NCBI RefSeq assembly: GCF_900188025.1
Contig: NZ_FZNO01000001.1
Location: 310,001-374,000 of the forward strand
DNA from: Blastococcus mobilis
Lineage (GTDB): Bacteria > Actinomycetota > Actinomycetes > Mycobacteriales > Geodermatophilaceae
Reading direction: 5' to 3'
DNA length: 64,000 nucleotides
The position numbers and the translations under genes were made by a program. Below the pieces are notes generated by a model. That model saw only the letters and a list, made by a program, of their open reading frames with translations. It was not told the DNA's origin and searched no databases. Each line of letters opens with the position of its first letter. The stretch's first letter is position 1. Shown here one piece after another: positions 24,111 through 60,311 of the stretch.

Positions 24111-25841
24111 ATGGCCGACATCCGCCAGGTCCAGGCCGGCACGCAGACGATCGCCGTCCGCAAGGACCTGCGGGTCCCGATGCGCGACGGCGTCACCCTG
24201 GCCGCCGACGCCTACTCCGGCGTCGAGGACAAGCCGCGCCCGGCCCTGGTCGCGCTCAGCCCGTACGGGAAGGAGCTGCAGGCCCTCGCCCTGACCATGC
24301 CGCCGCAGCGCCGTCCCAGCCCCATGTGGGACGGGTGCATCGAGGCCGGTGACATCGCCCGCGTGGTCGGCGAGGACTACGTCCACGTCATCGGTGACCT
24401 CCGCGGCTCCGGCGCCTCCGAGGGTGAGCACATCGGCAACTACAACGCCGGGGGCGTCCCACTCGGGCAGGACGCGTACGACGTCATCGAGTGGGTGGCC
24501 GAGCAGCCCTGGTGCGACGGCAACGTCGGCATGATCGGCATCTCCTACTACGGCTCGATGCAGGTCCTCGCCGCCGCCGAGCGCCCGCCGTCTCTGAAGG
24601 CGATCTTCGTCTCCGGCGGCCACTTCGACTTCTACGAGACCACGTACCACGGCGGCGTCATGTGGTTCATGCCGCGCGCCGCCCGCGAGGGCCGCGGTGG
24701 CGACTCCGGCTGGGCCTTCACCGACCGCATCACGTCGCGGATGCTCGAGACGTACTCCGCGGAGGAGGTCGAGAAGCGGGTCGCCGAACGCCTGCAGGAC
24801 CCGGACGTCGCGGCCTGGCCGAACCTCGTCCACGTGCTCCACTACCCGAAGCACCACGAGGCCTGGTTCGACATCGTCCTCAACGACCTCGACGGCGAGT
24901 GGTACGAGGAGCGCAACCCGATCAACCTCGCCCGGAACATCGACATCCCGGTCTACCTCCAGATCGACCAGGGCCGCGGCTGGACGGTGGACGGTCACAT
25001 CGAGTTGTTCGAGACCCTCACCGGCCCCAAGAAGCTGGTCATCGGCTCGTACCCCCCGATGCAGTCGCGCCCCTGGGTCGAGGAGCACGACGAGATGTTC
25101 CGCTGGTACGAGTACTGGCTCAAGGGCGTCGACAACGGGATCATGGACGAGCCCGCCGTGAGCGTCTTCGTGGAGGGCTCGCGCGAGGTGGTCACCGCCG
25201 AGCAGTGGCCGCCGAAGGACGTCGAGTACCGGTCGCTGTACCTGCGTCCGCGCGGCAAGCTCTCCGCGGAGCCGGAGCTGCTGGGCCCCGAGCACGCCGC
25301 GCCGGAGGGCTTCTACCAGGCGCCGCTGACGGTGACCGACAAGGTGGAGATCCTCAGCTGGAGCACCGCGCCGTTCGAGGAGGCCACCGAGCTCATCGGC
25401 ACCGGTGCCGCGCACCTGTTCGCCGAGATCGACCAGCCGGACACCAACTTCATCCTCCGGCTGTGGGACGCCGCTCCGAACGGGAAGCGCCAGCTGATCA
25501 CCACCGGCTACCTGAAGGCGTCGCACCGGGAGCTGGACGATCGGACGACGGAGGGCAACCCGTACCACCCGCACACCCGGGCCGTGCCGGTGGAGCCGGG
25601 GAAGATCGAGGAGTACGTGCTGCGCCTCTACCCGTTCGCGAGCACGTTCCGGCCGGGTCACCGCCTGGTGGTGGAGCTGTCCAACGACGAGCCGCTGGCC
25701 GACGCCCACAACGCGCTGCTGCCGCCGGACGCCTTCCACCTGCCGGTGGGCCGGCCCGTCACCCACAAGATCTACCGCGACGCCCTCCACCACTCCCGCC
25801 TCGTGCTGCCGTTCACGAGGCGTGCGGCCGAGGTGGGATAG
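24111..25841 (+). CDS. CocE/NonD-family serine hydrolase (X-Pro dipeptidyl-peptidase fold)
   Basis: 576 residues. The nucleophile elbow GMIGISYYGSMQ carries Ser about 145, preceded by GDLRGSGASEGE, the signature of CocE-type hydrolases. After the alpha/beta core (with a helical cap near 200-330) comes a C-terminal jelly-roll domain from about residue 400 (YVLRLYPFASTFRPGHRLVV). The family includes cocaine esterase, antibiotic acylases and X-Pro dipeptidases. No signal peptide, so cytoplasmic. AAGGAG precedes the ATG; 29 bases follow the MBL gene. It ends in UAG. Confidence 0.93.
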   Translation: MADIRQVQAGTQTIAVRKDLRVPMRDGVTLAADAYSGVEDKPRPALVALSPYGKELQALALTMPPQRRPSPMWDGCIEAGDIARVVGEDYVHVIGDLRGSGASEGEHIGNYNAGGVPLGQDAYDVIEWVAEQPWCDGNVGMIGISYYGSMQVLAAAERPPSLKAIFVSGGHFDFYETTYHGGVMWFMPRAAREGRGGDSGWAFTDRITSRMLETYSAEEVEKRVAERLQDPDVAAWPNLVHVLHYPKHHEAWFDIVLNDLDGEWYEERNPINLARNIDIPVYLQIDQGRGWTVDGHIELFETLTGPKKLVIGSYPPMQSRPWVEEHDEMFRWYEYWLKGVDNGIMDEPAVSVFVEGSREVVTAEQWPPKDVEYRSLYLRPRGKLSAEPELLGPEHAAPEGFYQAPLTVTDKVEILSWSTAPFEEATELIGTGAAHLFAEIDQPDTNFILRLWDAAPNGKRQLITTGYLKASHRELDDRTTEGNPYHPHTRAVPVEPGKIEEYVLRLYPFASTFRPGHRLVVELSNDEPLADAHNALLPPDAFHLPVGRPVTHKIYRDALHHSRLVLPFTRRAAEVG

Positions 25842-25956
25842 CAGAAGCCCAGCGCGTCCGCCGCGCCGATCGCGGGCGCACGTCCGGCGAGTGATGGAGG
25901 CACGAGGACGTGCGTCCGCCGGACGGAGCCTGCCGTCGAGGACGCGGTCACGCGGC

Positions 25957-27375
25957 ATGGGGGCTACCGTCGGCTGCGTGCGGCTCCCGGACGGACTCGT
26001 CGCGGTGGTCAAGCGCGACTGTCCTACCTGCGTGCTGGTCGAGCCGGTCCTGCGGGCGCTCGGTGCGGCCGTCTGGTGCCAGGACGACGCGGCCTGGTTC
26101 GACGGCGACGACACCAACCTCGAGCTGTCCTACCGGCTGGGGATCGAGACGGTGCCGACCCTGCTGCGCGTCCGGGCCGGGGTGGAGACCGCGAGGGTCG
26201 TCGGCTGGAGCCGCGAGCAGTGGGAGCAGCTCACCGGCGTGTCCGGGCTCGGCCCGGCGCTGCCCGACCACCGGCCCGGCTGCGGCTCGCTCTCGGTCGA
26301 CCCGTTCCGGATCGACGGACTCGAGGCCCGCTACGGCGTCAGCGGGCTGAGCAGCCGGCGAGTGGAGCTCGCCGACGCCGAGGACGAGCACGAGGCGCTG
26401 TTCGACCGCGGCTGGACCGACGGGCTGCCCGTGGTGCCGCCGACGCCCGAGCGGGTGCTGCGCATGCTGCGCGGGACGACGCGGGACCCGCGGGAGGTGG
26501 TGGCCGTCGTGCCGCCCGACCTCGTGGAGTGCACCGTGGAGAAGGTCGCCGTCAACGCGGTGATGGCCGGCTGCCTGCCGGAGTACCTGCCTGTCGTACT
26601 GGCCGCGCTCGAGGCCGCGACGTCGGAGGAGTTCGCGCTGCACGGGCTCCTCGCGACCACGCACTTCGCAGGGCCGGTGGTCATCGTCAACGGGCCGGTC
26701 GCGGCGCGGATCGGCATGAACAGCGGGGTGAACGCCCTCGGCCAGGGCAACCGCGCGAACGCGACGATCGGACGCGCGCTCCAGCTCGTCGTGCGCAACG
26801 TCGGCGGCGGCCGGCCAGGGGAGGTCGACCGGGCGGCCATGGGCAATCCGGGCAAGTACACCTTCTGCTTCGCCGAGCGGGAGGAGGACAGCCCGTTCCC
26901 GCCGCTCGCGGCCGACCGCGGTGTCGCCGGAGACGCGGTCACGGTGGTCGCCGGGTCGGGGGTGCAGCCGGTGGTGGACCAGCTCAGCCGCGACCCGGAG
27001 TCGCTGGCTCGCACGTTGGCGGCCTGCCTCCGGGTGAACGCACACCCCAAGCTGCCGGTGGCTTGGGATGCGCTGCTCGTCGTCTCGCCCGAGCACGGGA
27101 GGGTGTTCCGCGAGGCCGGGTGGGACCGTGGACGTCTCCTGGCCGAGCTGGAGCGCCTGCTCCTGCTGCCCGCTGCCGAGCTGGTCCGCGGTGCCGGTGG
27201 CATGGCCGAGGGGGTGCCGGACTCCATGGCGGGCCGAGAGCTACCCAAGTTCCGGCCGGGTGGCCTGCTCGTGGCTCACGCCGGCGGTCCGGCGGGCTTG
27301 TTCAGCGCGATCGTCGGCGGTTGGGTCGGCGGGGAGACGGGCAGCGTTCCCGTGACACGAGAGGTGCGCACATGA
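25957..27375 (+). CDS. Thioredoxin-domain protein fused to a large unrecognised domain; partner of the UGSC selenoprotein
   Basis: About 472 residues. Residues about 10-95 form a thioredoxin-like fold with the redox motif RDCPTCVLVEP and a cis-Pro loop (ETVPTLLRV). The remaining 350 residues carry GWTDGLPVVPPTPERVLRML, GPVVIVNGPVAARIG and GMNSGVNALGQGNRANATIG; I cannot name this domain. The gene ends ATGA with the start of the selenoprotein gene, so the two are translated together; a thiol-selenol redox relay is a natural idea, but inferred. The start is uncertain: ATG 25957 is used, with in-frame GTG/ATG at 25891-25894 and GTG 25978 as alternatives. Confidence 0.82.
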   Translation: MGATVGCVRLPDGLVAVVKRDCPTCVLVEPVLRALGAAVWCQDDAAWFDGDDTNLELSYRLGIETVPTLLRVRAGVETARVVGWSREQWEQLTGVSGLGPALPDHRPGCGSLSVDPFRIDGLEARYGVSGLSSRRVELADAEDEHEALFDRGWTDGLPVVPPTPERVLRMLRGTTRDPREVVAVVPPDLVECTVEKVAVNAVMAGCLPEYLPVVLAALEAATSEEFALHGLLATTHFAGPVVIVNGPVAARIGMNSGVNALGQGNRANATIGRALQLVVRNVGGGRPGEVDRAAMGNPGKYTFCFAEREEDSPFPPLAADRGVAGDAVTVVAGSGVQPVVDQLSRDPESLARTLAACLRVNAHPKLPVAWDALLVVSPEHGRVFREAGWDRGRLLAELERLLLLPAAELVRGAGGMAEGVPDSMAGRELPKFRPGGLLVAHAGGPAGLFSAIVGGWVGGETGSVPVTREVRT

Positions 27376-27884
27376 GAACGGTGCTGGACCCCACCGGGGA
27401 GCGGCAGGCACCCGGCCGTGCGCTCCTGCCCCGTCCGGTCGCGCTGGAAGGGCGCACCGTCGGTCTGCTCGACATCAGCAAGGCCCGCGGCGACGTCGTC
27501 CTCGACCGGCTGGAGCAGCTGCTGACCGCGGACGGTGCTCACGTGCGCCGGTACCGCAAGCCGACGTTCGCCCGTCCCGCCCCGGTGGACCTGCGGCACG
27601 AGATCGCCGAGCAGTGCGAGGTGGTCATCGAGGCGCTCGCCGATTAGGGCTCCTGCACGTCGTGCAGTGTGCACGACATCGCCGACCTGGAGCGCCGCGG
27701 CGTGGTGGCCCTCTTCCTCGCCAGCGAGGCCTTCGCCGAGGCCGCGCGGCTGCAGGGCGAGGCGCTCGGCTTCCCCGCCCCGTTCGTACTCGTGCCCCAC
27801 CCGGTCCAGGACCGGACCGACGACGAGCTCCGCACCATCGCGGAGCGTGTCTACCCCGACGTGGTCGCCGCGCTGACCGCGTGA
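27372..27884 (+). CDS. UGSC-family selenoprotein read through an in-frame UAG (selenocysteine at codon 92)
   Basis: Reading from ATG 27372, codon 92 (27645-27647) is TAG; the same frame continues for 78 codons to TGA at 27882-27884, giving a 170-residue protein. Around the TAG the protein reads EALAD-U-GSCTSCSVHDIAD, the motif after which the UGSC (seleno)protein family is named. Neither half is family-like alone: the motif straddles the stop. A hairpin that could act as bSECIS lies 11 bases downstream of the TAG. The start overlaps the stop of the thioredoxin-domain gene (ATGA). The usual Sec codon is UGA; UAG use was reported for Geodermatophilus and Blastococcus (Mukai et al. 2016, from memory). 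Enzymatic role unknown; GSCTSC suggests selenol/thiol chemistry. A decayed gene is the main alternative, but the conserved second half argues against it. Confidence 0.85.
27659..27677 (+). promoter_or_regulatory. bSECIS-like hairpin for UAG recoding
   Basis: GTCGTGCA (27659-27666) and TGCACGAC (27670-27677) pair perfectly over eight base pairs around a GTG loop (or seven pairs with loop AGTGT). It begins after exactly 11 bases following the UAG, the spacing known for the minimal E. coli bSECIS, and the loop contains the GU that SelB contacts there. A competing stem, CTGCAC/GTGCAG (27653-27667), overlaps it. Codons through it still encode the conserved SCSVHD segment, as a bacterial SECIS must allow. 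Confidence 0.7.
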
Positions 27885-60073: not shown

Positions 60074-60253
60074 CCCGGGTCAGGGGGCGCCGACGGAGGT
60101 GGGCGGGGCCCGCGCGACCCGCATCAGGGTGGCCGCCGCACACCGGCCGCCGGCTGGGCCCGGACGGGTCGCCTGCGGTGGTCAGCATCACCGCCGAGAC
60201 CGGTGCCCGGCCGGTGGGATGTGAGACCGTAGGCGTGAGTCCACGATGAGACT

Positions 60254-60296
60254 CCCGGACGAGCAGCGCCGTACCCGGACAGCGACAAGACGGCGT
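60254..60296 (+). promoter_or_regulatory. Guanidine-III riboswitch
   Basis: The DNA matches the published guanidine-III aptamer almost base for base: CCGGACGAG, GCGCCGTACCCGG, then GACAAGACGGCG. P1 forms between CCGG (60255-60258) and CCGG (60275-60278), P2 between GCGCCGT (60266-60272) and ACGGCG (60290-60295), giving the H-type pseudoknot. The AGGAG site of the SMR gene begins only six bases after it, so guanidine binding would free or block ribosome access. Confidence 0.9.
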
Positions 60297-60311
60297 CTCC
60301 AGGAGACACCC

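Follow-up and report, generated by a model that had tools for sequence, protein, structure and literature searches.

A predicted bacterial SECIS element directly downstream of an in-frame UAG codon in a UGSC-family gene of Blastococcus mobilis

Members of the Geodermatophilaceae possess a selenocysteine tRNA (tRNASec) with the anticodon CUA, and UAG-coded formate dehydrogenase (FDH) and UGSC selenoproteins of this family were reported in reference 56 of PMC5330540, a paper that itself adds an AhpC with a UAG codon and a predicted bacterial SECIS (bSECIS). Selenoproteins containing the U-G-S-C motif form a described family (PMC2398784; NF041046, PF24696). The bSECIS consensus model (PMC13188914, Fig. 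2), written for UGA, specifies an apical loop of 3-9 nt, an upper stem of 4-16 bp, a distance of 16-37 nt from selenocysteine (Sec) codon to apical loop, and a minimum free energy of -7.5 kcal/mol or lower. In the Escherichia coli fdhF element, the hairpin follows its UGA after 11 nt; its stem contains a bulged U, and its loop, GGUC, is 4 nt long. Reference 56, which we take to be Mukai et al. 2016, reportedly included 75Se labelling in Geodermatophilus and Blastococcus.

The window analyzed here (the whole 64,000-nt stretch of Blastococcus mobilis DNA) contains a further gene of this kind, in which an ATG is followed by 91 codons and an in-frame TAG and, if the TAG is read, the frame continues to a TGA (Table 1). 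The TAG falls exactly at the U of the U-G-S-C motif in the read-through protein, whose 170 residues match the family profiles PF24696 (E 3e-45) and NF041046 (E 6.7e-44); since these Pfam and NCBIfam profiles span the read-through protein, the regions before and after the TAG belong to a single conserved family, the same as that of the described UGSC selenoproteins, with UAG here in place of UGA. We read the hairpin that follows the TAG as a bacterial SECIS directing Sec insertion at this codon, with a probability of roughly 0.95. An ordinary stop, arising in a pseudogene or by sequencing error and leaving a relic or separate gene downstream, would be suggested by nothing but the stop itself and by an ORF with its own GTG start (27669-27884) among the mechanically listed reading frames; against it, 72 genes from tens of genomes each contain exactly one stop, always TAG and always at the Sec position, and the family profile crosses it, so that we give this explanation almost no weight.

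Table 1. Features of the UGSC-family locus (positions in the window)
Feature	Position	Strand	Remarks
Upstream ORF	25822..27375	+	overlaps the UGSC start as ATGA (27372-27375); possible operon partner
UGSC-family selenoprotein gene (predicted)	27372..27884	+	171 codons including stop TGA 27882-27884; putative Sec = codon 92; TAG taken as read through
In-frame TAG (putative Sec codon)	27645-27647	+	from sequence; in alignments, at the position that is Sec or Cys in UGSC homologues
Spacer GGCTCCTGCAC	27648..27658	+	11 nt between UAG and stem, from sequence; same length in UGSC genes (TAG and TGA) and in this genome's TAG-coded FDH
Putative bSECIS hairpin GUCGUGCA-GUG-UGCACGAC	27659..27677; loop 27667-27669	+	8 perfect pairs, 3-nt loop beginning GU
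Overlapping alternative stem CUGCAC-GUC-GUGCAG	27653..27667	+	-6.5 kcal/mol; mutually exclusive with the SECIS hairpin

The ORF preceding the UGSC gene has a CPTC motif and a weak thioredoxin-like match (PF13098, E 0.0011, below the curated cut-off), and its product is a possible redox partner of the UGSC protein. The genome's second UGSC gene (G000 C48:111854-112345; L009) contains one TAG and a hairpin, GUCGUGGA GUU UCCAUGAC. Elsewhere in the window, positions 60234-60299 match the Guanidine-III riboswitch (58 bits).

An initial annotation of this DNA had proposed a bSECIS-like hairpin at 27648-27677, with a perfect 8-bp stem and GUG loop, 11 bases from the UAG, GU in the loop, and a location within the codons of a conserved protein segment. 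All of this is borne out by the sequence; the range itself is numerically right, although it takes in the spacer, the hairpin proper beginning only at 27659. The annotation had also suggested comparison with a bSECIS model, and on all four sequence-level points the hairpin agrees with the consensus: a 3-nt loop on an 8-bp stem, an apical loop beginning with G (GU in all 72 TAG-coded homologues), 19 nt (11 + 8) from UAG to apical loop, and a folding energy of -10.9 kcal/mol. The in-frame TAG just ahead of the hairpin corresponds to the U of U-G-S-C, and the genome has a tRNASec(CUA); the recoded codon is UAG rather than the UGA for which the model was written. The E. coli fdhF element shares the 11-nt spacing and the GU in the loop, but differs in its UGA, bulge and larger loop from the perfect stem and 3-nt loop found here, and its stem is weaker (17-mer, -4.2 kcal/mol). 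Judged by sequence, the hairpin appears to be a bSECIS that departs from the E. coli shape in its details. The energy of the isolated 19-mer was equalled by none of 200 shuffles, whereas folding of the 71-nt context was ordinary (z -1.14; 26 of 200 shuffles as good); energy alone is thus no proof in DNA this GC-rich, and the in-context value, not being significant, was dropped as evidence.

A second, overlapping palindrome noted in the initial annotation is real as sequence, but a function for it found no support. Its inner five pairs can form in all 36 TAG genes encoding the GSCTSCS peptide and in none of the 36 others; because it is present only where Cys codons flank and is not conserved across subfamilies, the alternative stem was rejected as a functional element, and is most simply seen as a by-product of these codons.

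UGSC genes were found in 54 of 112 genomes of the family, and the initial annotation had set its proposal against two outcomes, a stem not conserved among Sec-coding orthologues and a stem equally conserved in those coding for Cys. Neither was observed. The apical 6 bp and the GU loop at +11 are present in 72/72 aligned TAG-coded genes, and all 8 pairs in 59; the remaining 13, from subfamilies D and E, retain 6 bp in register but lack the two basal pairs there, further pairs forming only beyond a bulged A. Among TGA-coded homologues, drawn from further families within the order and from the phylum at large (2 of 46 rows, being wrong-frame hits, were left out), the apical 6 bp with GU occurs in about 36 of 44 and the full 8 bp with GU in 31 of about 44; these sequences, like the TAG-coded ones, are related, so that the counts are not independent events. 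The apical stem with GU loop is found in 0 of about 35 Cys homologues, an imperfect control since most of these are paralogues in which this segment has different residues.

The same geometry recurs in a protein unrelated to UGSC. The FDH alpha subunit encoded on contig 61 of this genome, found with TIGR01553, has a UAG at its Sec site, followed after 11 nt by the 8-bp hairpin GGUGCCCG-GUC-UGGGUGCC, and 28 of 29 relatives across the family have 8 bp; TIGR01591 was set aside as an FDH model, its matches in UAG genomes having no internal stop. A covariance model (R1) trained on the two families together was run over the whole genome and scored the window site at 53.2 bits, the UGSC gene on contig 48 at 45.7 and the FDH at 38.8, with the next match at 24.8 bits (L306), so that only three sites stand clear genome-wide. 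Because R1 contains the sequences of these three genes, their scores are high by construction, and it is the gap to the remainder that matters; weak matches, including L306 and L315, were discarded for want of a credible coding context around their TAG. In one other genome (G079 C12; L271), the FDH match begins at a TGA that lies shortly beyond where Sec normally occurs, and the typical TAGCACTC context is absent from the strand searched; this FDH is perhaps broken or misassembled.

The machinery for such recoding is encoded in the same genome (5.09 Mb). A tRNASec on contig 65 (Rfam tRNA-Sec, 67 bits, above cut-off), with the anticodon loop CUCUAAA and hence the anticodon CUA, matching the UAG codon, is immediately followed by selA (TIGR00474, 1.3e-125) and selB (TIGR00475, 2.1e-85), with selD (TIGR00476, 2e-115) divergent at this locus. 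As in the Geodermatophilaceae system described in PMC5330540, tRNASec(CUA), selA, selB and selD are thus combined with in-frame UAG codons in two UGSC genes and one FDH; there is no difference in principle, only another genome. ARAGORN labels the CUA tRNASec (L001 1501-1596) tRNA-Pyl on account of its anticodon, and annotation pipelines may mislabel such genes likewise. Pyrrolysine at the UAG, to which that label and the CUA anticodon would point, is nonetheless scarcely credible, given the Rfam assignment, the adjoining selA, selB and selD genes, and the TGA or Cys found at this site in homologues. RF1 is present, and in a crude prediction of 46 genes UAG is the terminator of 7; as UAG is still a stop, a local signal is needed, and the codon is recoded locally rather than reassigned. 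Conservation, the contrast with Cys homologues, and this cognate machinery all support interpreting the hairpin as a bSECIS.

Because the hairpin shares its bases with a conserved stretch of the protein-coding sequence, its stem is partly enforced by the protein, and it could in principle be a mere by-product of codons for this stretch (peptide GSCTSCSVHD) in GC-rich DNA, with tRNASec(CUA) reading UAG without it. For this protein, 8 bp would be expected with a probability of 1.3-2.2%, which is not negligible, and one Cys homologue (L011) retains a 6-bp stem, without GU. With protein and local codon usage fixed, however, 8 pairs and a GU loop together have a probability of 0.0012 at the exact site (about 0.001 to 0.002 for subfamilies A-C). 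The loop serine is encoded by AGU, which accounts for 2.9% of serine codons, in 107 of 108 Sec genes, and by UCG or AGC, never AGU, in the nine Cys homologues with Ser at this position (Fisher p 1e-12, relatedness ignored). Compensatory changes, which the initial annotation had proposed looking for in related UAG genes, do occur: base-pair exchanges that are synonymous on both sides are present in UGSC genes (L160 and L172), and doubly synonymous pairs are found in FDH genes encoding HSATVPGLGA (GGTGCCCG/TGGGTGCC vs CGTGCCCG/TGGGTGCG) and HSATVPGLGT (GGTCCCCG/TGGGGACC vs CGTCCCCG/TGGGGACG). Covariation in an alignment of UGSC and FDH genes (A1) is 0.630, compared with 0.235 after shuffling and no more than 0.157 when partners are slid, and the pooling of two gene families inflates the first of these scores; the hairpin of subfamily A is nearly invariant, and covariation there comes from the other subfamilies and FDH. 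Together with the identical geometry over a different peptide in FDH, and with RF1 and a UAG that still terminates, these observations leave a coding by-product very improbable, if somewhat less so than an ordinary stop or pyrrolysine.

If the hairpin is a SECIS, the UAG would enter the ribosomal A site during translation of the UGSC mRNA, the hairpin lying 11 nt further 3'; SelB, loaded with Sec-tRNASec(CUA), would bind the GU loop and upper stem, and would deliver selenocysteine at the UAG in competition with RF1. The outcome would be a 170-residue UGSC protein, presumably with a redox function, rather than a 91-residue stub. The hairpin itself would have been inherited from UGA-using ancestors of the lineage, the only changes being those of the codon and the tRNA anticodon.

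The distribution of codons and anticodons is consistent with such a history. Among UGSC homologues, TAG is seen only in the Geodermatophilaceae, and a scan of contigs returned 108 TGA and 11 TAG sites, all 11 from contigs named Geodermatophilus or Blastococcus; as the scan pattern fixed the hairpin sequence, it shows codon by taxon, not hairpin conservation. The anticodon is CUA in 24 tRNASec genes of the family, that of this genome included, and UCA in three genera (g5, g6 and g7; 7 genomes; L178-L183, L186), a distribution that locates the change of anticodon within the family. FDH fragments from two g7 genomes have UGA and a 7-bp GUC hairpin whose loop lies 19 nt from the codon. The simplest reading, which we infer from these sequences, would be a UGA-to-UAG switch within the family that left the SECIS in place.

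One genome of the family (G058) has two tRNASec genes (C17:1173-1263, L177/L288; C11:15836-15927), the former with the anticodon UCA and situated in a transposase-rich stretch of lower GC content, while its UGSC and FDH genes are both UAG-coded; dual decoding or an inactive acquired copy is possible. A bolder proposal would be that codon identity and SECIS-SelB recognition have been uncoupled in nature, UAG having replaced UGA as the Sec codon without any change in the hairpins of at least two unrelated selenoproteins, and that G058, with an apparently acquired tRNASec(UCA) beside its native tRNASec, could decode two stops as Sec simultaneously; we hold this as a speculation with the odds well against it.

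UAG-coded Sec in Geodermatophilaceae (UGSC, FDH and AhpC) is already in the literature, and the site at 27645 is a further case. What is possibly novel is that UGA and UAG are followed by one and the same hairpin, and that the anticodon switched inside the family; in the accessible literature we found no comparison of the UGSC and FDH hairpins of UAG lineages with those of UGA lineages. The value added here lies in this comparative evidence and in a hairpin unchanged across a codon switch. Natural stop-codon switches are few, and UAG-Sec recoding is among them; the family offers a clean comparison, with the same protein and hairpin coupled to UGA outside it and UAG inside, and with UCA in g5-g7 and CUA in the others examined, so that it becomes testable in which order anticodon, codons and SelB changed. 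A short SECIS with a 3-nt loop could, in addition, serve UAG-based selenoprotein engineering.
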